A DNA stretch of 23,465 bases from a virus. Where the stretch lies: positions 1-23,465 of IMG/VR virus record IMGVR_UViG_3300024520_000505; one strand, 5' to 3'. The notes beneath the pieces are model-generated. The model saw only the letters and a list, made by a program, of their open reading frames with translations, was not told the DNA's origin and did no database searches. The translations under genes and the position numbers were made by a program. Positions 2,199 to 21,898 of the stretch are shown in pieces (the first letter of the stretch is position 1; each line of letters opens with the position of its first letter).

Positions 2199-4130
2199 AT
2201 GGTCAGTTTTAGAAAGTCTTTTGCTGGTGCCTTGTCCAAGCTTGGATTCATAGAGAAATCCTACACGGAAACTACCACCCGACCTAGTGTAGCCCAGCCT
2301 TACATGAGTACCGATACAGGTGCAAAACTACCAATTTTCCCATTTCCACTCACCATGATTTATGAGTTGGCAGATAACATTGATGCCCTAAGAATACCTA
2401 TTGAGACTCTCAACCGTGAAATGTTCAAGAACGGATTTGAAGTTGTAGAGAAATGGAAGTACAAATGTAATAATTGTTCCAAGGAGTTTCAATATGCACC
2501 TACCATGGACAACCCTGACGAGCAGCCGTTTGAGGCTAACGGTGACAATGCACAGGCACACCCACGAAAGAAAAAGGCTGTAGAGGCAAAGGGACTTGTG
2601 TGTGACACATGTGGAAGTCACGACCTTGTCAGACCAGTGCCAGAACACAGAAAGACCTTGGAAAACTTGATGATGGAGCCCGTAAACAGCAACCAGCAAA
2701 CCTTGGAAGACGTTGCACGTCAGTTGGAGAGGGACTTTGAAATTGCAGACAATGCATATTTGCTTTTGCTTAAGAATTACAAGATAGACGATGTTACAGG
2801 TGCGATAGACCAAGAGAAGACAATTATAAAAGAGATGTTGAGGATTGAGCCACCACAGGTGGCAATGATTGCTGACAGTGATGGGCGTATTGGTTATGAC
2901 GACAAGAGAAACAAGATTTGGGTATGCCCAAGGTTTGAGCACAGGGATGCCAGACTTACCACCCCAAAATGTGACAGATGTGGAGCAGAGGCACTAAAGG
3001 CGGTAATTGAAGTTAACTCTGTATACTCTATAGGTATCCCACAACCTAAGAGAGTCATTTATGGAGAAGGCGAAGTTATTTGGAAGGCTGGAAAGTACAA
3101 GCCAAACTTGCTTTATGGATTTTCACCTATCTATTCAGTGTGGTCAAAGGCAATGTCCCTGTCACACATGGACGAATATATTCGCAAGTACTTTGACAAG
3201 ATGAGACCACCACGAGGTATGTTGGTTATTTCTTCAAGGAACTATGACACCTTTAGAAAGAGTTGGGACGTGCTTGAACAAAAGGCACAGGAAGATCCAT
3301 ACATGATTCACCCCCTATTGGTAGAGAATGACAAGGGTGGAAAGAACCCTGCACAGTGGCTTGACTTTACTGGATCGCTTAAGGAGTTGGAATTTATCGA
3401 GGTAAGAAAGGAGTTGAGAATGATTATCGGAGCCGTCTATGGCGTGCTTCCGTTCTATTATGGCGAGACCCCTGCTGGCTGGAGTCAGGAGGGATTGCAG
3501 GTTACAATTACAAACCGTGCTGTTCTATGGGGACAGGACACCTTAAAGAAGGCATTTTTCTCAAAAATTTCAAAGATGTTAAACATTGATGACTGGGAAC
3601 TTCAGTTAAAGACTGGTGAGGAGACCGACAAGTTGAGAGACTTGCAGACTGACGGTATTGAAATACAGAACATGATGATGCTTCAACAGATGGGCTTTGA
3701 CATTACAAGAACCCACACAGGTGAGTTTAAGGTGAGCAAGGAAACTGCACTAACAGCAGAAATGATGTTTGGTATTGGTGCAATCAATGGAAACCAGAAC
3801 GGTGCAGGAAAGGGAGTACCAGCCCCTCAGGAAAAGACACAGTCGTTTGAGGGAGAGCCAAACAACATGAGACCAAGCGACATTGGCGGCACTGGACAGG
3901 GAAGTCCTACAAGCGGAAGCTCAATGAGCAAAAAGTCCGCATATCCAAAGGGAATCACCCCGTCAAACTTTGAGGTAGTAAAGAATACTTTGCAAACTGC
4001 TATGGATTATGATTGGAAAAAGACAAAGACCGTTGAGGAACTGAGAAAGGCTACTGGAATGACTGTAAGGGATGCAAGGGACATTGTTGCTGGTGAATTT
4101 GAAGGCGTAAAGAGATGGGAAGATGAGTGA
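2199..4130 (+). CDS. portal protein with two zinc-ribbon-like insertions
   Basis: Portal proteins form the ring at one capsid vertex through which DNA is packaged and to which the neck attaches. Length (643 aa), position before the protease and capsid genes, and YGFSPIYSVWSKAMSL (about 306-321) followed by a helical segment with IRKYFDKMRPPRG support a phage portal of the SPP1/HK97-like class. GAVYGVLPFYYGE (411-423) fits the region before the stem. Two insertions are unusual: C90/C93 with C135/C138, and C243/H248 with C258/C261, both of zinc-ribbon spacing. The C-terminus from about 520 is Gly/Ser/Pro-rich and then helical. The start fits a leaderless transcript. The gene is markedly GC-richer than the tail genes. 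The portal call is solid; the zinc sites are inferred from spacing. Confidence 0.85.
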   Translation: MVSFRKSFAGALSKLGFIEKSYTETTTRPSVAQPYMSTDTGAKLPIFPFPLTMIYELADNIDALRIPIETLNREMFKNGFEVVEKWKYKCNNCSKEFQYAPTMDNPDEQPFEANGDNAQAHPRKKKAVEAKGLVCDTCGSHDLVRPVPEHRKTLENLMMEPVNSNQQTLEDVARQLERDFEIADNAYLLLLKNYKIDDVTGAIDQEKTIIKEMLRIEPPQVAMIADSDGRIGYDDKRNKIWVCPRFEHRDARLTTPKCDRCGAEALKAVIEVNSVYSIGIPQPKRVIYGEGEVIWKAGKYKPNLLYGFSPIYSVWSKAMSLSHMDEYIRKYFDKMRPPRGMLVISSRNYDTFRKSWDVLEQKAQEDPYMIHPLLVENDKGGKNPAQWLDFTGSLKELEFIEVRKELRMIIGAVYGVLPFYYGETPAGWSQEGLQVTITNRAVLWGQDTLKKAFFSKISKMLNIDDWELQLKTGEETDKLRDLQTDGIEIQNMMMLQQMGFDITRTHTGEFKVSKETALTAEMMFGIGAINGNQNGAGKGVPAPQEKTQSFEGEPNNMRPSDIGGTGQGSPTSGSSMSKKSAYPKGITPSNFEVVKNTLQTAMDYDWKKTKTVEELRKATGMTVRDARDIVAGEFEGVKRWEDE

Positions 4131-6547: not shown

Positions 6548-6570
6548 TAATGTTACAGTCGAGTTTATAT

Positions 6571-8208
6571 ATGGAAGACGAGATATTCTTCAATGAATTT
6601 GTGACAAAAGACCTACATCCTATTGACGGTGCTCAACGATTTTTCGAAGGTTATCTTACAGTTCAGGTTAAAGACAAGCAGGGAGAGATTACAATCGTTG
6701 ATGAATTAATCAAGGTATTACCTATTTGGATGGACAGAGGAGCACCAATCAGTGACACTCACAGTAACAGAATTATCGGAAAAGGTATCAGTTATGCCAA
6801 GGTGGATTATAAAACCAAGGAAGGTACTTTATTACCAGCAATTAAAATTACAGGAAAGATACACAAAGACTATCACCTAGACAATGAAATTTGGGACAAG
6901 ATTAAAAGTGGAGAGTACAAGGGACTGTCATTTGGCGGTGCAACAAAGGCAAACAGAACGCCAAAAGTCATGAAAGATGGAAGTGTTGCCTATGAACTTA
7001 AATCATTAGAACATTATGAGGTCGCTGTATGCAAAGATCCAGCAGTTCCCCTAGCATTAATTACCGATTATAATCCACTTGCAAAGGCAATTACCGACAA
7101 CGTAGAGAGAAGAGATGACGGCAAGATGGTAATCAAGTGCAGTAAATTTGGTTGTACTGTAGAGAAAATGACAGATTTTGCAAACGCAGATGGTGATAAA
7201 ACTAACGCACAAGGTAAACAAGATGTAGAACCAAACAAATCATCAAACAGGGAATCAAGTCCAGTAGATGACGATGACGATGCAAATATTGGAGAAGAAA
7301 AGAAAGACGATGAAATTAAAAAAGAGATACAGGGAAACATTGGAGACGTAAGACACAGTGGAAAGGAATATGAGAACACTGAAACTGCACAAATAACAAG
7401 AGTTCCAGAAGAGGGTGGAGACAGTGACGATGCAGTTGTTACCAGAGAGGGTAAAAAAGAGGAAGAGGAAGATGAAACTAAAAAATCAGGTTATCAAACA
7501 GAAGATGGCAATAATCAATTAGGTGGACAAGGTGTCCCAAAAGAGAAAGAAAAAGAGAAAGATAAGAAGAAAAACAGCGAAAACTATATAAACTCGCTTA
7601 ATAAAGATTCTGGTAAGGATATGGACAAAGATACTTCCACAATTTCAAAAACTGAAGAAGAGAAATCTTCCGAAGATGAAGAAAAGAAAGACGAAGTTGA
7701 AAGAGAAGATAAAAATGCATCTTTCCAAGAAGCAATCAAATCAAACATCGGTACATTGACTGACGTTATAAAGTCACTCGCAGAAACTCAAAAAGACGTT
7801 AGTTCTACATTAGTAGGTATTGATGATAGATTGAAAGCATTGGAAACTCCAACAGACTTACCGTTGAAGCCTAGTACTTCAGCAAGTGAAGACGTTGGTG
7901 CAAAGGTTACAGTCCCAGATACATACCAATCTAATTCTGTGCAAGCAGGACTAGACGACGATAAATCTGGTGAAGATAAACCAAAATCAGACCCTAGTGG
8001 ACTGAAAATGCAAGAGAAATCTAATTTCGACTTTACTACCGAGACTCCAAGACCTAATGCAGCAATCGAAACAATTAACAAATCTACAACCGATATGTCA
8101 TTTGTTTTGAAAGATGCAAGAGAAGGTGGAAATCTAAGCGTAGTAGCAAGAAACATTCTAGCAGGCAAGTATTATACTCCAACACCTGACGAAGTAGGAA
8201 CATACTAA
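6571..8208 (+). CDS. head maturation protease fused to an acidic scaffold
   Basis: Residues about 1-175 resemble the prohead serine protease of phage XkdF/HK97-protease type. RGAPISDTHSNRIIGKG has the candidate catalytic His (H64), YKGLSFGGATK the candidate Ser (S120), and LEHYEVAVCKDPAVPLALI closes the domain. From about 200 to 480 the chain is extremely rich in Glu, Asp and Lys and low in complexity, as expected for an internal scaffold that is later digested. C191 and C195 lie in CSKFGC at the junction. The C-terminus (ARNILAGKYYTPTPDEVGTY) may contact the capsid protein. Such fusions direct shell assembly and then clear the interior. I chose ATG 6571 from the TATA spacing. The capsid gene follows after one base. 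Confidence 0.75.
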   Translation: MEDEIFFNEFVTKDLHPIDGAQRFFEGYLTVQVKDKQGEITIVDELIKVLPIWMDRGAPISDTHSNRIIGKGISYAKVDYKTKEGTLLPAIKITGKIHKDYHLDNEIWDKIKSGEYKGLSFGGATKANRTPKVMKDGSVAYELKSLEHYEVAVCKDPAVPLALITDYNPLAKAITDNVERRDDGKMVIKCSKFGCTVEKMTDFANADGDKTNAQGKQDVEPNKSSNRESSPVDDDDDANIGEEKKDDEIKKEIQGNIGDVRHSGKEYENTETAQITRVPEEGGDSDDAVVTREGKKEEEEDETKKSGYQTEDGNNQLGGQGVPKEKEKEKDKKKNSENYINSLNKDSGKDMDKDTSTISKTEEEKSSEDEEKKDEVEREDKNASFQEAIKSNIGTLTDVIKSLAETQKDVSSTLVGIDDRLKALETPTDLPLKPSTSASEDVGAKVTVPDTYQSNSVQAGLDDDKSGEDKPKSDPSGLKMQEKSNFDFTTETPRPNAAIETINKSTTDMSFVLKDAREGGNLSVVARNILAGKYYTPTPDEVGTY

Positions 8209-8209
8209 A

Positions 8210-9427
8210 ATGACTCAAATCAGAACAATCGATGAGCTTGAGGCACAATATTATGGACACAATCGTAACCTTCTTAGAAAAGCAGATGCTCCATCAACTA
8301 CCAGTACTGCTGGTATGTTTAACGCCATTTTTGGTGCTTACGCATGGGCTCAACTCAACTTAGAAGCAAACGCATTCGGCATTCTCCCAAAATACCCTTG
8401 GGATAAATCTGGATGGAGGGTTATAACAGCAAAACCAACACTTAATACCAACAACAGTAACACTGCCCTAGGTGGTACTACTGAAGGCGGATTAATTGCT
8501 GAAACAATCAAACCAACAGTCGCAGAATTAGATGTCAAACCAAAAACTGCTCAGTTGCCTTTCAGTGCATCTGAAGTTATGGAATGGCTATCAACTCATT
8601 CAAAAGACGACATTTGGGGTGGACTTGGTTCACTAAGATTGTACATGGCTGTGCAACACAAAGAGTTCATTAATAGAATGCTTTTGGCAGATGTTGAAAG
8701 CGATGCAGCAGCATCAAGTGGTGCTCACACTGGTACACAAGACTTTGAATCACTAGATAGAATCGTATCAAGTGATGCAGAGGAAGATGCACTAGGTGGA
8801 AGCCACTCTGGATTTTACGATCCTTGGGCTGCTGATGCTACCGTTGACAGAGATGGAAACGGTGGAGAATTTGACTGTACAGTAGAATCTGCTTCTGGTA
8901 CTATCGGTACTGACGGTGTATTGACTGACGATGTTCTAAGAACTTTCTTACGAAAGATTAGAATCGCAGCAGGTAAAGATCCAAATGTATTCCTAGGCTC
9001 CCATGAAGTCTACTCTGAGATACAAGGCTTATACATGCCAAGTGTCCGTATTGCAAACCCATACGGTGAGCAATTAGTTCAAGTAGACGTAAACGGTATC
9101 CAAACCTTTAAAGGTACAGGTACTGGTATTCATGTCGACTCTATCTATGGAATTCCATTCATTCCAACAAAAGATGCACCATCTAATGGTTCAACTGAAG
9201 TTGGAAGACTATTTGCATTAGATACATCTGATGCAGAAGGCTATGGATATCCAAGAATCGGAATTCAAGTGGCTATACCAACCGAGTATTATGAAGCAAC
9301 TAGAAGATCTGCTGGCTATCCATTCGTGAACAATGCTTTCGTTGAGAAAGGTGTGTTCAGAACAATGGGTGAGACAGTTTGTCGCCATTTCAAATCACAA
9401 GGTAAAATTAGAGACATTAAACTCTAG
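8210..9427 (+). CDS. major capsid protein (HK97 fold)
   Basis: A 405-aa protein directly after the protease-scaffold is the expected major capsid protein. It begins MTQIRTIDELEAQYYGHNRN, has a central acidic, Gly-rich insertion (about 180-240), and ends with a region typical of virion shell proteins (YYEATRRSAGYPFVNNAFVE). No long N-terminal scaffolding arm is present, which agrees with the scaffold being part of the upstream gene. HK97-type capsid proteins diverge beyond easy recognition, so the call rests on size, context and general character. The gene ends before a clear T-rich terminator, so protease and capsid probably form one transcript. Confidence 0.8.
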   Translation: MTQIRTIDELEAQYYGHNRNLLRKADAPSTTSTAGMFNAIFGAYAWAQLNLEANAFGILPKYPWDKSGWRVITAKPTLNTNNSNTALGGTTEGGLIAETIKPTVAELDVKPKTAQLPFSASEVMEWLSTHSKDDIWGGLGSLRLYMAVQHKEFINRMLLADVESDAAASSGAHTGTQDFESLDRIVSSDAEEDALGGSHSGFYDPWAADATVDRDGNGGEFDCTVESASGTIGTDGVLTDDVLRTFLRKIRIAAGKDPNVFLGSHEVYSEIQGLYMPSVRIANPYGEQLVQVDVNGIQTFKGTGTGIHVDSIYGIPFIPTKDAPSNGSTEVGRLFALDTSDAEGYGYPRIGIQVAIPTEYYEATRRSAGYPFVNNAFVEKGVFRTMGETVCRHFKSQGKIRDIKL

Positions 9428-9442
9428 TCATACCAACCCCCC

Positions 9443-9459
9443 TTTTTACCCCTTTTTTT
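9443..9459 (+). terminator. T-tract terminator after the capsid gene
   Basis: Runs of five T (9443-9447) and seven T (9453-9459), separated by ACCCC, follow the stop codon at 9427. Confidence 0.6.
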
Positions 9460-9467
9460 ATATTAAC

Positions 9468-9475
9468 TTTATATA
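9468..9475 (+). promoter_or_regulatory. TATA box for the 9498-9890 gene
   Basis: TTTATATA is centred exactly 26.5 bases before the ATG at 9498. Confidence 0.7.
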
Positions 9476-9497
9476 ATAGTGGTTCATACATTTCTTA

Positions 9498-9890
9498 ATG
9501 GCAATTACAATCGCACAAAATGCCGACCATAAAAGTCTTACAGGAAAGACACTATCCATCCAAGCAGAACTGACTTCTAAATTAAAGTCAACCATTGTTG
9601 ATGTCACCTATGGTGCATCTGACAATTATGCTACTAATGGTAATACTGTCGATCTATCCCTAGGAAGTAGAATTAGTACTGTTATTGGAGCAGAAATACT
9701 CCATTGTAACAAAGGACTACTTTTGCAATATGCACCAGCAGCAGCAGGAGCAGCAGCAACAGGGAAAATTAAAGCTTTTGGTCACACTCCAACAAGCTCT
9801 ACAGCAACAGTTGTAGCCCTTGAGGAACTAGATAGTGCTGATACAGCAGTCAATTCAATGACTATTCGTATTAGAGTAATCGGTTTCTAG
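9498..9890 (+). CDS. small virion protein, probable capsid decoration, 130 aa
   Basis: A beta-rich, Thr/Ser/Ala-rich protein directly after the major capsid gene. The ending (AVNSMTIRIRVIGF), the LSLGSRISTVIGAEIL segment and the GKIKAFGHTP segment resemble, from memory, a class of small structural proteins found after capsid genes in marine siphoviruses. A short Ala-rich stretch (YAPAAAGAAATGK) lies near residue 80. It has its own promoter and a T-run after it, so it can be made in large amount. Decoration or head-stabilising protein is the best guess; the exact role is not shown. Confidence 0.6.
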   Translation: MAITIAQNADHKSLTGKTLSIQAELTSKLKSTIVDVTYGASDNYATNGNTVDLSLGSRISTVIGAEILHCNKGLLLQYAPAAAGAAATGKIKAFGHTPTSSTATVVALEELDSADTAVNSMTIRIRVIGF

Positions 9891-9907
9891 ACTAAGATCT
9901 AGTCATA

Positions 9908-9915
9908 TTTTTTTT
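9908..9915 (+). terminator. T-tract terminator
   Basis: Eight consecutive T follow the 9890 stop and precede the next TATA box. Confidence 0.5.
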
Positions 9916-9925
9916 CTTAATAATG

Positions 9926-9933
9926 TTTATATA
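9926..9933 (+). promoter_or_regulatory. TATA box for the 9956-10228 gene
   Basis: TTTATATA is centred 26.5 bases before the ATG at 9956. In-frame ATGs also occur at 9947, 9950 and 9965. Confidence 0.6.
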
Positions 9934-9955
9934 TGACTAAATATCTATGATGTTT

Positions 9956-10228
9956 ATGGTTGAGATGAATCATAATGCAATTACTGTAAGTGCAGACACT
10001 ACAATTAAAGGTGCTCATGGAGTAGTTGTATCTGTACATGTCACAAAGGCAGGAGCAAGTGGAGACAAGATTGTATTAAGAAATGGTACTGCCAACTCAG
10101 ATGCAATAGAATTTACCGTGTTTGGAGAAGGAATACAAAACATTCAAGGAATCAATAGAAGATTTGAAAATGGTATTCGGGCTGATATTACAGGTACTAC
10201 TGCTCAATATCTAGTAGTGTTTAAATAA
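9956..10228 (+). CDS. small beta-rich virion protein, 90 aa
   Basis: The protein starts MVEMNHNAITVSADTTIKGA and has alternating beta strands (VVVSVHVTKAG, DKIVLRNGT, IEFTVFGEG), ending QYLVVFK. No cysteines or charged clusters are present. Its position between the first small virion gene and the connector, its compact beta pattern and its individual promoter suggest a second decoration or head-fibre-like subunit. The start at 9956 is chosen from promoter spacing; 9947 would add three residues. The family is not recognised. Confidence 0.55.
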   Translation: MVEMNHNAITVSADTTIKGAHGVVVSVHVTKAGASGDKIVLRNGTANSDAIEFTVFGEGIQNIQGINRRFENGIRADITGTTAQYLVVFK

Positions 10229-10231
10229 ATC

Positions 10232-10239
10232 TTTAAATA
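10232..10239 (+). promoter_or_regulatory. TATA box for the connector gene
   Basis: TTTAAATA is centred 27.5 bases before the ATG at 10263. A second TTTATATA at 10250-10257 is too close to the start to serve it. Confidence 0.6.
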
Positions 10240-10262
10240 TCAAGTGACTTTATATATTAGTG

Positions 10263-10859
10263 ATGGTTACTACAACTACATATTGTTCTGTAGGAGATAT
10301 TAGTGATTTCCTAAGAGTTCCAATCACTGCAACTACCACACCAAACAAGGAGATGGTTCGCAAGATCATTGCAAGAAAGGAGGAGGAGTTGGACAGAAGA
10401 ATAGGTCATACTTGGAAGACAAAAAAAATTACCAGAGAAATTCACGATTTACCGCTATTATACACGTTTGGATGGGGTACACCACTATTCCTTCAACACA
10501 GAAACATATTGGATCTTGATGTAGATGAGGGGGATAAAATAGAGATATGGAAGGGAGAGTCAAACGAGTGGGAAAACATCATTGACAGTCCACAATGGTA
10601 TCATGCAGAGTATGAATATGGTAGAATTTATGTCAGAGGATTCCTGTTTACAATATTAAGAAAGAATAGGGTTAGAGTCACATACCGTTACGGTGGAGAG
10701 AACTTTGCTGGTGATACTGTAATCCCACCTGACATTACAGATGCTGTAATAAAAATGGCATCAATAGAAATAATGAACACTTCATTTCGTATGATGAGAT
10801 TCCAAGCGGTGGAAGCGTGTCTCCTAGCGAAAGTAAGAGATTTTGGCAGGAAGATATAG
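10263..10859 (+). CDS. head-tail connector (adaptor), apparently frame-broken near its end
   Basis: The N-terminus (VGDISDFLRVPITA) and the helix with IIARKEEELDRRIGHTWK match the usual start of head-tail adaptor proteins that dock on the portal ring. A beta region with VRVTYRYGGE and a C-terminal helix (ITDAVIKMASIEIMNTSF) follow. As read, it ends with an odd sequence (FQAVEACLLAKVRDFGRKI). A shift to the -1 frame at 10802 instead gives PSGGSVSPSESKRFWQEDID then LCVSNRREVFVIP, ending at TAG 10901-10903, four bases before the next ATG. That version looks more natural and would be 213 aa. A lost base, an assembly error or a genuine recoding event are all possible. ATG 10263 fits the TATA box better than the GTG at 10260. 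Confidence 0.7.
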   Translation: MVTTTTYCSVGDISDFLRVPITATTTPNKEMVRKIIARKEEELDRRIGHTWKTKKITREIHDLPLLYTFGWGTPLFLQHRNILDLDVDEGDKIEIWKGESNEWENIIDSPQWYHAEYEYGRIYVRGFLFTILRKNRVRVTYRYGGENFAGDTVIPPDITDAVIKMASIEIMNTSFRMMRFQAVEACLLAKVRDFGRKI

Positions 10860-10907
10860 ACCTATGTGTATCTAACCGTAGAGAAGTATTTGTGATACCA
10901 TAGAATT

Positions 10908-11669
10908 ATGTTATTTGGTAGTATTCGTAGAAGAATAGTTAGTGCAATCAATAAAGTTTATTCCATAACAAGTAAAGGTGGCAGTGCTAGGGTTTTACAT
11001 GAAGATGATAAATTAAAAGATGATGAAATACAATTGGGAAGAGTTGCTATTCCAGTACCAGATGATGTGTTAAAAGACAGTATTTCACTTAATGAAAATA
11101 TGAGTAATGAAGAATTGTCATTGGTGGTTACAAATGTCATTCAAAATGTAGATAAACAATATACTGAAAAAGAACCATATGATAAGGTATTAGACCCTAC
11201 CCCTTCTCCAATAACTGCCGACAGTAAACCTACATTGCCTGATGGGTGGTCAGCTGCATATTATCCTGCTGGTGGAGAAACTGGTGGTAAACCCCACATA
11301 CCATCCATAAAAGAATGGGTTAACAATGTCAAATTAAACCATATGACCACACAAGATCTACAACAGGAATATGGTAAGACATTTAATAAAAAAACTCCCA
11401 ATTTATGGAACGATGACATGAGAGAAAAGTTGGTTGATTCTATAGCATTTATGGTTGCTAGGAAGATATGGTATGTAGGCAGGAGACCTAGTAGTATGAC
11501 TGATAGTGAGTGGGATGAACACACCAAACATATGAGACCTCATCAAGGTTCGTTTAGTAAAAATGAGCATTGGTCTAATGGTTTTCCTTATGGACAAGAA
11601 TATACTTATAGAAGTTGGGGTCATGAAGAAGTAATGGAGTTAAAAACTAAAGGGAAGTTGAGCTGGTAG
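10908..11669 (+). CDS. probable neck or tail-completion protein (gp10-like), 253 aa
   Basis: The C-terminal half includes SIKEWVNNVKLN and then REKLVDSIAFMVARKIWYVG followed by RRPS (about 170-190). This resembles the helix and Gly turn of HK97 gp10-type head-tail joining proteins (IA...I...G..P). The N-terminal half (about 1-110) is polar and variable, and residues 90-125 are Pro/Gly-rich. It lies between the connector and a probable tail terminator, the usual slot for this function. No separate TATA box or strong ribosome site precedes ATG 10908, so it depends on the connector transcript. Its stop is directly followed by the next ATG. Confidence 0.5.
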   Translation: MLFGSIRRRIVSAINKVYSITSKGGSARVLHEDDKLKDDEIQLGRVAIPVPDDVLKDSISLNENMSNEELSLVVTNVIQNVDKQYTEKEPYDKVLDPTPSPITADSKPTLPDGWSAAYYPAGGETGGKPHIPSIKEWVNNVKLNHMTTQDLQQEYGKTFNKKTPNLWNDDMREKLVDSIAFMVARKIWYVGRRPSSMTDSEWDEHTKHMRPHQGSFSKNEHWSNGFPYGQEYTYRSWGHEEVMELKTKGKLSW

Positions 11670-12086
11670 ATGGCTATTACAACTTATGATGCAGTAGATG
11701 ATATCATTGATCTTATTAGAACAAAATGGTCTAGTTTAAGACCACCTCACATAACAAAGGTATGGGAAAAAAGAACTGTTGGGTTTATAGATGATAGAAG
11801 TGATGAAATCATCGTGTCCCCAAAAGGTGAAAATATACAGTATTTTGGTCTAGGTGGTAGTTCATTCTTTCATGAACAGATAATTGAATTGGATATACGT
11901 ACATATCAAAATATTAAAAGACATGATAAAGTGGTCAAAGAGGTGGTTAAAATCATCAAAGATAACATAGTTGGTACTACCTACACAGATTTGCGAGTAA
12001 TAGGTTCATTTAGTAGAAACTTTCAATTTCGTAATATGTTTGATTATGTTATAACTATATCATATAGAAAATCAGACCCATCCTAG
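11670..12086 (+). CDS. probable tail terminator protein, 138 aa
   Basis: The alpha/beta pattern fits small tail-terminator proteins, which cap the tail tube and join it to the neck: an N-terminal helix (DAVDDIIDLIRTKWSSL), strands with EQIIELDIRTYQN, a helix (DKVVKEVVKIIKDNI), then FDYVITISYR. Size and place just before the tail tube gene agree. The ATG follows the previous TAG without a gap (TAGATG), implying coupled translation. It ends 41 bases before the tail tube start, with a new promoter between. Confidence 0.6.
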   Translation: MAITTYDAVDDIIDLIRTKWSSLRPPHITKVWEKRTVGFIDDRSDEIIVSPKGENIQYFGLGGSSFFHEQIIELDIRTYQNIKRHDKVVKEVVKIIKDNIVGTTYTDLRVIGSFSRNFQFRNMFDYVITISYRKSDPS

Positions 12087-12097
12087 ACCTAAAAATC

Positions 12098-12105
12098 TTT
12101 ATATA
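12098..12105 (+). promoter_or_regulatory. TATA box for the tail tube gene
   Basis: TTTATATA is centred exactly 26.5 bases before the ATG at 12128. Confidence 0.7.
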
Positions 12106-12127
12106 GTAATAGACTGTTTATTATATT

Positions 12128-13138
12128 ATGGTAGTTTATACTGGTGGATCGTCATCTGTTGCTTATGGATATGAAACAACTTTTGGTACAGCGGTAACCC
12201 CAACAGATTCATTTGGATTACAACAAAAAGTTACTGGTTTATCACTCAATACAAGTCAAATAGTTCTTAATAAATTAGGTCAAGTAGAACCAACTAAATT
12301 TGCTTTCGGTCAACAACAAGGAAGTGTAAGTATGGGATTTATTCTTGACAGTGCTCAATCTTATAAAATTTTTGATTCTTTTTATGGTACTCCAAGTGGG
12401 ACTACTACAAAAGTATATCCAGCTCTTGCAAGTATATACACAGGAACCAGTGGAGTTAATGTATCCCCAGCAGCACCAAAATCATTAACAACCAGAATTC
12501 AGGTTAACGGATCAAGTGTGTTTACCAGAACATTAAAAGGATGTGTTGTTAATTCACTTGGTATAAGTACAAGTATTGGTGAAACAGTAAATGGTACAAT
12601 AGATATGGCTTTTGCAGAAGAAAGTACTGCTGATATTACAGGTTCTACGTTTGTTCAACAAGATGATACTGCTATTTCACAACCAGCAACTCCTTACACA
12701 TTTGCACACGGTTCATTAAAAATATCAAATCAAGGCAATCCAACTGCTACAATGACAGAAATTGCAGAAATTCAAGATGTTGATGTAACATTTACATCTA
12801 ATGCTGAATTACTTTATAGTCTTGGAAGTCATTATGCACAGAGTGTATTTAGAAAAGTATTTGATATTGGTGGTAGATTTAGAACATCATTCAAAGATAA
12901 AGCACTTTTACAATATGTGATTGATCAATCTATTCTTACTAAAGAAACTGAAACTGTTGGAGAGGTAAGTAATGTAGGTTTGTCACTAACATTCACAAAT
13001 GGGTCAAAGAATATGACATTGGAATTTGGTGGTGTATCATTAGCAGATCATAGTTTAACTGGAATTGAACCAGTAGAACCAATATTTGAAGAACTAAACT
13101 GGAAAGCAAAATACTCTAAAATATCAGTAACACCATAA
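12128..13138 (+). CDS. major tail tube protein, 336 aa
   Basis: This protein forms the inner tube of the tail. It is beta-rich with many Ser, Thr and Gly and no long helices. The opening (VYTGGSSSVAYGYETTFGTA) matches the start seen in many siphovirus tube proteins, where a Gly-rich strand precedes YG.E..FGT. The second half contains repeated strand segments (IQDVDVTFTSNAELLYSLGS, LSLTFTNGSKNMTLEFGGVS). Position before the tail assembly chaperone and tape measure is canonical. A strong individual promoter suits a very abundant protein. Confidence 0.75.
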   Translation: MVVYTGGSSSVAYGYETTFGTAVTPTDSFGLQQKVTGLSLNTSQIVLNKLGQVEPTKFAFGQQQGSVSMGFILDSAQSYKIFDSFYGTPSGTTTKVYPALASIYTGTSGVNVSPAAPKSLTTRIQVNGSSVFTRTLKGCVVNSLGISTSIGETVNGTIDMAFAEESTADITGSTFVQQDDTAISQPATPYTFAHGSLKISNQGNPTATMTEIAEIQDVDVTFTSNAELLYSLGSHYAQSVFRKVFDIGGRFRTSFKDKALLQYVIDQSILTKETETVGEVSNVGLSLTFTNGSKNMTLEFGGVSLADHSLTGIEPVEPIFEELNWKAKYSKISVTP

Positions 13139-13160
13139 TAACAATTATATTATCATAAGC

Positions 13161-13168
13161 CTTATAAG
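13161..13168 (+). promoter_or_regulatory. TATA box for the tail chaperone gene
   Basis: CTTATAAG, a palindrome, is centred exactly 26.5 bases before the ATG at 13191. Confidence 0.6.
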
Positions 13169-13190
13169 TAACCTATATTAATATTTTGTA

Positions 13191-13604
13191 ATGACTTTAA
13201 TACCAATAGAGATTATGTATGGTGGTAAAAAGGAAATTATAGAATTTGAAGATTCTCTAACATTTGGTGACACTGAATCATTAATTGGTAATTCTGTAGA
13301 CCTTAGTGATGTAACAAAACCAAAAATAGACCTACAAAAATATAGACTAAGTCTATTGGTACTAACCATCAAAAAAGCACCATTTAAGGTGGGCGATGTA
13401 ACAGCCATTAAAATGACAGATGCAAAAGTCATAAAATCGATACTAAAGGAGATAGTGAAGGTACACCCTTTAACGAGTTATATCGAGGATTGGATGGAAA
13501 CATTCATAAGCTCAGAGGAACTGAACAAGTTAGATACACAATCTACTACCACTGTGCCACCCAATTCGGCTGGGACAAAGAAACAGTTGATAGGCAAGAA
13601 ATAA
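13191..13604 (+). CDS. tail assembly chaperone, short form (gpG-like), 137 aa
   Basis: This small protein lies directly between tail tube and tape measure, where tailed viruses encode chaperones that coat the tape measure during tail assembly. The N-terminal beta half (PIEIMYGGKKEIIEFEDSLT) is followed by strands and a helix (VIKSILKEIVKVHPLTSYIE, then DWMETFISSEELNKLD), as in gpG proteins. A second open frame overlaps its 3' end and encodes the typical C-terminal extension (13466-13711). Residues 118-137 (STTTVPPNSAGTKKQLIGKK) are a low-information tail used only by the unshifted product. Confidence 0.7.
   Translation: MTLIPIEIMYGGKKEIIEFEDSLTFGDTESLIGNSVDLSDVTKPKIDLQKYRLSLLVLTIKKAPFKVGDVTAIKMTDAKVIKSILKEIVKVHPLTSYIEDWMETFISSEELNKLDTQSTTTVPPNSAGTKKQLIGKK
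13466..13472 (+). promoter_or_regulatory. candidate -1 ribosomal frameshift site CCCTTTA
   Basis: In the chaperone frame the codons are CAC-CCT-TTA, so the heptamer reads C CCT TTA, the X XXY YYZ form for simultaneous -1 slippage. It lies inside the region where the -1 frame is open (from 13412). I found no other canonical heptamer between there and the conserved extension. Confidence 0.5.
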
Positions 13605-13711
13605 ACTATTTAAAGAAATTATTTTATACACATAAAATTACTATGGAAGAGGCTGAACGTGAAAATATTACCCCACCAATGTCTCGTAATATGACTAAAA
13701 ACTTTAAATAG
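13466..13711 (+). CDS. frameshifted C-terminal extension of the tail chaperone (gpGT-like)
   Basis: The -1 frame is open from 13412 to the TAG at 13709-13711. It encodes YTIYYHCATQFGWDKETVDR and then QEINYLKKLFYTH, which closely resembles the second domain of tail assembly chaperones, normally made only as a frameshift fusion (like lambda gpGT). Slippage at 13466-13472 would give a product of about 173 residues. A TTG at 13490 could instead start a separate 73-residue protein, but it has no clear ribosome site. The end of the ORF overlaps the TATA box of the tape measure gene. Confidence 0.65.
   Translation, partial: PFNELYRGLDGNIHKLRGTEQVRYTIYYHCATQFGWDKETVDRQEINYLKKLFYTHKITMEEAERENITPPMSRNMTKNFK
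13703..13710 (+). promoter_or_regulatory. TATA box for the tape measure operon
   Basis: TTTAAATA is centred 25.5 bases before the ATG at 13732. It overlaps the last codons of the chaperone extension, so the bases serve both purposes. Confidence 0.55.
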
Positions 13712-13731
13712 ATATATAATATTTATATATC

Positions 13732-21286: not shown

Positions 21287-21898
21287 ATGGCTATTACATA
21301 TCTCAATTATAGGTTATGTTCAGAAGATGGATGTTTCCTAAAACATGATGGAAAAGGATTATGTAAAAAACATTATGCTAAATTATATGAATCATATGAT
21401 AAACGTAAAGAGTATCATAAAGAATACACATCAAACCCAACAAATAAAGAAAGAAAATTAGAATGGGATAGAAACAATACTGATAAGACTAAACAGTATA
21501 GACAAAAACATAATAGTAAACCTGACCATAAAGCAAAAAGAAAGGTATACCGTCAAAGACCATATGTAATGGAATATGAAAGAAATTATAAGAATGATTA
21601 TAATAAGAAAAACCCAGAAAAATCTCTTAATTGGAGTAAAACCCATCTTGAAAAATCAGGTGAAATTCATAATTTATCCATATATGATATGATGTATGCT
21701 TTACAGTCTTGGTCAAAATCAGTTAAGAAAAGAGATGATAAAAAATGTACTGAATGTGGTGATGATAAGAATTTACATGCCCATCATGTGTTACAAAAAT
21801 CAATATATCCAGAGTTTACATTTGTAATATCAAATGGAATAACTGTATGTCAGCCATGTCATATGAAAATACATAAGGAGGAACGAAGTTGGCAATAA
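21287..21898 (+). CDS. HNH endonuclease with N-terminal zinc finger, 203 aa
   Basis: The C-terminal HNH nuclease has C154/C157 (CTEC), the AHH motif with H166/H167 (LHAHHVLQKSIYPEFTFVIS), N183 (SNGITVC), and C188/C191 with H192 and H196 (CQPCHMKIH). These are the active-site histidines and the structural zinc site. The N-terminus has C11, C16, C26 and H29 (ending GLCKKHY), the zinc finger common in phage HNH genes. The middle (40-115) is a basic repeat of Lys/Tyr/Asn-rich helices (KEYHKEYTSN, KQYRQKHNSK, YERNYKNDYNKKN) likely to track along DNA. It stands between two fibre genes, as free-standing homing endonucleases often do. Its end holds the ribosome site and start of the next gene. Confidence 0.85.
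   Translation: MAITYLNYRLCSEDGCFLKHDGKGLCKKHYAKLYESYDKRKEYHKEYTSNPTNKERKLEWDRNNTDKTKQYRQKHNSKPDHKAKRKVYRQRPYVMEYERNYKNDYNKKNPEKSLNWSKTHLEKSGEIHNLSIYDMMYALQSWSKSVKKRDDKKCTECGDDKNLHAHHVLQKSIYPEFTFVISNGITVCQPCHMKIHKEERSWQ
21875..21881 (+). promoter_or_regulatory. strong ribosome site for the TTG start at 21889
   Basis: AAGGAGG lies seven bases before TTG 21889, inside the end of the HNH gene. No ATG occurs near the start of that frame, so this site decides the start. Confidence 0.65.

Follow-up and report, generated by a model that had tools for sequence, protein, structure and literature searches.

The closest described systems are the tail assembly chaperone genes of phage lambda and of haloarchaeal tailed viruses. 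In the lambda G/G-T system (Xu, Hendrix and Duda 2004, as described in PMC5009743), the gene precedes that of the tape measure protein, and a -1 shift late in G gives two products with a shared N-terminal domain, one of which also has a T domain. In archaeal viruses, -1 frameshifting in tail chaperones has already been reported for HVTV-1, HCTV-1, HCTV-2 and HCTV-5 (PMC5009743, PMC8211752). The heptamers reported in haloarchaeal tailed viruses are G_GGA_AAx and A_AAA_AAC, the latter in HCTV-2 (PMC5009743), and a frameshift at G_GGA_AAT was predicted for Hardycor1 (PMC7911831). A review of 2021 gives one demonstrated cellular archaeal case together with reports in a few haloviruses (PMC8211752). 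The remark in our first-pass annotation that such shifts are little described on archaeal ribosomes is fair, but to call the present case the first would not be. The heptamer found here, CCCUUUA, has been put forward as a -1 frameshift site of Giardiavirus, a eukaryotic virus with an unrelated gene and ribosome, where its use is disputed (PMC8230311).

We analysed a window of 23,465 bases, which is one complete IMG/VR virus record. It contains an ORF, here called G, that is overlapped by a start-less open region in the -1 frame, called T (Table 1). The locus shares with lambda the position before the putative tape measure gene, the predicted -1 shift late in the G frame and the division into a common N-terminal domain and a T domain; unlike lambda, it belongs to a virus of archaea, uses another heptamer, shows no sequence similarity that we could find and has a conserved Shine-Dalgarno (SD)-like element upstream. 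SD stimulators of frameshifting are known in bacteria, and in E. coli dnaX the -1 shift at A_AAA_AAG is promoted by an internal SD sequence together with a downstream stem-loop. An SD-like element 5' of a -1 heptamer is thus common to dnaX and our locus, whereas the gene and the heptamer differ and a stem-loop 3' of the site is not supported in the archaeal virus. HVTV-1, HCTV-1 and HCTV-5 (Druskaviridae) are likewise tailed viruses of archaea; their portal and major capsid proteins (MCP) are related to those of the virus studied here, and they have two overlapping chaperone ORFs between a tail protein and the tape measure region, annotated as a joined CDS and in -1 phase where read. In HVTV-1 and HCTV-1 (L101 and L102), GGAGG or GGGGAG is seen 8-10 nt 5' of the chaperone heptamers, the comparison there being one of presence and not of conservation. 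Their heptamers are GGGAAAG and GGGAAAC, whereas the virus here and its relatives always have C_CCT_TTA; G and T of the window gave no tblastn match in the genomes of the HVTV-1/HCTV group, and the MCP identity is about 30%. The kind of gene is already known; what is new is the distant virus group, a heptamer that PMC5009743, PMC8211752 and PMC7911831 do not list for archaea, and the conserved SD-like element.

Table 1. Features of the putative G/T chaperone locus and its neighbours (positions in the window)
Feature	Position	Strand	Remarks
G (tail assembly chaperone, zero-frame product)	13191..13604	+	ATG start, 137 aa; residues 1-94 common to the fusion
T (-1 frame open region, start-less)	13412..13711	+	overlaps G; T domain from 13472 after the shift, 79 aa
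Slippery heptamer C_CCT_TTA	13466..13472	+	P-site CCU to CCC, A-site UUA to UUU
SD-like AAGGAG, probable frameshift stimulator	13446..13451	+	14 nt 5' of the heptamer
Predicted G-T fusion, 173 aa	13191..13711	+	13191-13472 in frame 0, 13472-13708 in frame -1, stop 13709-13711; predicted from heptamer phase
TTG, rejected as independent T start	13490..13492	+	not conserved in 40 distinct loci
Possible small hairpin, 18 nt 3' of the heptamer	13491..13506	+	folds in the window sequence
Tail tube / major tail protein, directly 5' of G	12128..13138	+	Phage_tube_2 PF18906, E 1.8e-20; phrog_290
Tape measure protein (inferred), directly 3' of T, 712 aa	13732..15870	+	position, length, C-terminal YQFGEHGSEAVVPL

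In the frame of G the heptamer reads C CCT TTA, which is the X_XXY_YYZ phase required for an exact -1 shift, and a shift at this point would join 94 residues of G to 79 residues of T. The first-pass annotation had placed a domain with YYHCATQFGWDKETVDR in the -1 frame after a G-like ORF, had regarded CCCTTTA as correctly phased and had expected a fusion of about 173 residues; all of this, including every coordinate, agreed with our reading of the frames. A search of IMG/VR with the G protein found 41 relatives, all of which have CCCTTTA at the same codon (codons 92-94), and the -1 frame is open in all 40 whose contigs run past the heptamer, L031 ending just 3' of it. Further searches, using the T alignment as well as alignments of those members that had diverged most, widened the set. 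For the G family it comprised 159 located sites, some contigs being present in more than one locus, which were reduced to 87 exactly distinct ones and then to 75 loci less than 95% identical in nucleotide sequence. Loci entered the set through similarity of their proteins, and the peptide patterns used to find the later members belong to other parts of the proteins. All 75 of these loci have CCCTTTA at the same codon, with G identity down to about 30%, although the loci are related to one another and such counts are not independent trials. The heptamer would have been doubtful if relatives that keep both frames had lost it, and no such case was found.

The conservation of the site is also seen at synonymous positions. 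Across the 75 loci a TAC, CAC or TTC codon is followed by CCT and TTA, without a single synonymous variant, so that the synonymous agreement reaches 1.00 at each of the three, where codon usage would predict 0.55, 0.43 and 0.24. Just before the site the residue varies (Tyr, His or Phe), while its codon ends in C throughout. Most of the codons from -30 to -11 before the heptamer lie near the expected agreement; part of the conservation 3' of the heptamer stems from dual coding. Judged against codon usage, the conservation of CCCTTTA across the relatives is far beyond chance. A frameshift in a single contig can be an error, and the two frames might once have been one gene, split by faulty sequencing or by decay. 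The same two-frame layout recurs, however, in 75 distinct loci, which come from many metagenomes, and both frames are conserved; this rules the explanation out, and we give it a practically negligible probability.

The T frame has no conventional entry of its own before the site: ATG, GTG and TTG are absent from it 5' of the heptamer in all 40 distinct loci, and in 13 of them a T-frame stop lies no more than 6 nt 5' of the heptamer. T can therefore be reached only by a shift or from a start further in. Such a start, which the first-pass annotation had named as the finding that would speak against a shift, could be TTG 13490, the heptamer then being incidental. This codon is TTG in the window and in 21 of the 40 loci, and the SD-like element lies upstream of it, at a distance of 38 nt, which speaks against initiation at this place. 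The same codon is, however, CTG in 16 loci, GTG in one and a non-start codon in two, and a protein initiated within the overlap would permit synonymous changes at CAC-CCT-TTA, of which there are none. Together with the stops in the T frame, this led us to reject an independent start at TTG 13490, and initiation of a separate T protein anywhere in the overlap appears very unlikely. As no start precedes the heptamer and the later TTG is not conserved, T is most likely reached by a shift from G.

That T is translated is indicated by its pattern of substitution. In the part of T that lies past G, differences number 2337, 1400 and 3694 at codon positions 1, 2 and 3, and since they fall mostly at the third position, T is by this measure a real protein under selection at the protein level; in addition, 17 members share invariant residues. 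The shifted product might be made from slipped transcripts and not by the ribosome, transcriptional slippage being another recognised source of shifted proteins (PMC5009743). No run of identical bases at the site is longer than three, and slippage is improbable where there is no long homopolymer; the conserved codon phase and the SD-like element also point to the ribosome, so we regard a transcriptional origin as highly improbable. A ribosomal shift thus remains the preferred route to the -1 product.

A second conserved element was found upstream of the site. Codons 86-88, which read AAG or AGG, GAG and ATA in most of 27 relatives, have a synonymous agreement of 0.96, 1.00 and 0.97, compared with 0.59, 0.55 and 0.40 expected, whereas the adjoining codons 89 and 90 vary freely at synonymous sites. 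Dual coding cannot explain this, because the T frame is closed just 5' of the heptamer in 13 of the 40 loci. We scored the pairing of the 21 nt 5' of the site with an assumed 16S rRNA 3' end, AUCACCUCCU. In 40 loci the mean was -8.40 kcal/mol, against -3.86 for synonymous recodings, and the summed energy of -336.1 kcal/mol lay beyond that of all 300 recoded sets (best -206.1), while windows further upstream did not differ from their own recodings. The complementary register shifts among AAGGAG, GGAG, GAGGTG, AAGGAGGT and GGAGG with the pairing strength kept, as would be expected if the pairing itself is conserved.

On this evidence the AAGGAG-like element is probably a frameshift stimulator. 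It could instead be that the shift takes place and the element is kept for another reason, such as the protein sequence or RNA binding. The amino acids at this place were strongly conserved in the first-round set (LKEI/LREI), and L049 and L099, the two that have diverged furthest among the 40 loci examined, lack the SD-like element while keeping the heptamer. On the other hand, the conservation is synonymous, all Glu codons at this position being GAG and not the commoner GAA, and the register moves while the pairing strength is kept; we hold this second explanation to be unlikely, though deserving some weight, and prefer a stimulator. We know of no archaeal case of SD-stimulated frameshifting. 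SD stimulators are mentioned in the review of archaeal recoding (PMC8211752).

The starts of the structural genes look different from the internal element: G, the tape measure ORF, the tail tube and the portal genes are preceded by little or no SD, which fits leaderless starts, whereas ORFs 19702, 21287 and 22659 do have one. We also noticed short A+T-rich, TATA-like gaps without an SD directly 5' of G (13140-13190) and of the tape measure ORF (13700-13731), which suggest archaeal promoters and leaderless transcripts.

The first-pass annotation had proposed looking for a conserved structure downstream of the heptamer, and this was not supported. In the window, 61 nt of the 3' region fold somewhat better than shuffled sequences (z -2.49), but stretches of 101 nt from the window and four relatives do not. 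The small hairpin of Table 1 is absent from the RNAalifold consensus of 29 relatives, and of the helices named by hand near it only one pair covaries, in an alternative register.

The identification of G and T as a tail chaperone, also made in the first-pass annotation, is supported by the gene order and by the predicted fold. The AlphaFold2 model of G residues 1-94 (pLDDT 86) consists of a beta hairpin followed by helices, and among its best Foldseek matches are tail assembly chaperones from Bacillus phages, from one Arthrobacter phage and from HHTV-2, a virus of haloarchaea, the matches to those of the Bacillus phages and HHTV-2 having a probability of 1.00 and E values of 1.3e-4 to 3.7e-3; a Foldseek search of the PDB gave no match. 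According to this model, G has the tail assembly chaperone fold. T is predicted to be helical, and four of its 17 members match the tail assembly chaperone family phrog_9001 weakly (best E 0.02). No Pfam match, no meaningful PDB sequence match and no match in the annotated phage collection were obtained for either G or T. Several features of this class of genes are found together here: a conserved heptamer in phase, an overlapping second ORF without a start, a predicted chaperone fold and the gene order.

Another, more distant group, L240-L265 (e.g. L243:2564-3126 and L256), has a G that looks unrelated and a similar T domain (FGWT...), and carries an in-phase CCCTTTC or CCCAAAA at the corresponding position. 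T of L243 matches phrog_9001 at 1e-4, and the group gave no match in the annotated phage collection.

The morphogenesis module runs from portal (2199-4130) and MCP (8210-9427) to tail tube, G/T and the 712-aa ORF, so that, as is typical of chaperone genes, a Phage_tube_2 gene lies 5' of G/T and the long ORF directly 3'. Profile searches with the latter gave no match; its C-terminal YQFGEHGSEAVVPL is a motif usual in tape measure proteins. The capsid-side genes of the window are almost the same as in some relatives. When the window was compared with its relative L027 over 6550-13604, the MCP was 99.8% and the ORF at 6550-8205 98% identical, and the tail tube only 57% and G 64%, which suggests an exchange of the tail module. 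The portal protein has zinc-ribbon-like CxxC...CxxC insertions, an apparently unusual feature of a portal protein, and close to the end of the structural genes there is an HNH endonuclease ORF (21287-21898), possibly a homing endonuclease.

That the virus is archaeal, as the first-pass annotation had assumed, is supported by the matches of its portal, MCP and of the MCM helicase of relatives. Among 50,697 phage records, the portal matched only haloviruses of the HVTV-1/HCTV type, and the MCP only these and methanogen-associated viruses. An MCM helicase is encoded in five of nine longer relatives; in G002, the one whose neighbouring gene was read, it is followed by a Rad51/RadA-like gene, and the only matches of this MCM in the phage collection are archaeal viruses. 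These archaeal-type replication genes come from the longer relatives, none having been found in the window itself. AmoC was not found in the nine longer relatives, the controls likewise giving no match, and PCNA was not found either. Profile searches of genome contigs, one based on the alignment of G and one on that of the MCP, might have shown a host through a provirus but found no relative. With about 30% identity in the MCP and about 25% in the portal to the HVTV-1 group, the virus is by these values a distant relative and not a member of the Druskaviridae. A published tree sets MCPs of the HVTV-1 type among viruses of marine archaea (PMC8651126), which is compatible with the archaeal affiliation and is not a test of it.

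Taken as a whole, the data are best explained by G and T being one gene with two products, and we consider it very probable that these arise by a -1 slip at C_CCU_UUA. We infer that the shift occurs at a rate at which most ribosomes would read through G to give the 137-aa protein, while some would slip back by one base, the tRNAs on CCU and UUA re-pairing with CCC and UUU to give the G-T fusion. The AAGGAG-like sequence 14 nt upstream would probably pair with the 16S rRNA 3' end while the ribosome is elongating and so promote the slip. By analogy with lambda (PMC5009743), from which the roles in tail assembly are taken, G may coat the tape measure protein, and in the minority product G-T the T part may recruit tail tube subunits.

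Programmed frameshifting in archaea is thinly documented, and the chaperone with CCCTTTA would be a phylogenetically deep case. The heptamer also offers annotators a clear marker of split chaperone genes in contigs of archaeal viruses. The different heptamer and the conserved SD-like element raise a testable question, namely whether a -1 slip of the elongating archaeal ribosome is stimulated when its 16S rRNA pairs with the mRNA. It seems likely that in a large non-halophilic group of archaeal tailed viruses an invariant C_CCU_UUA and an internal SD drive a -1 shift on archaeal ribosomes, and that these viruses would use mRNA-16S rRNA pairing for recoding despite having little or no SD at the starts of their main structural genes.
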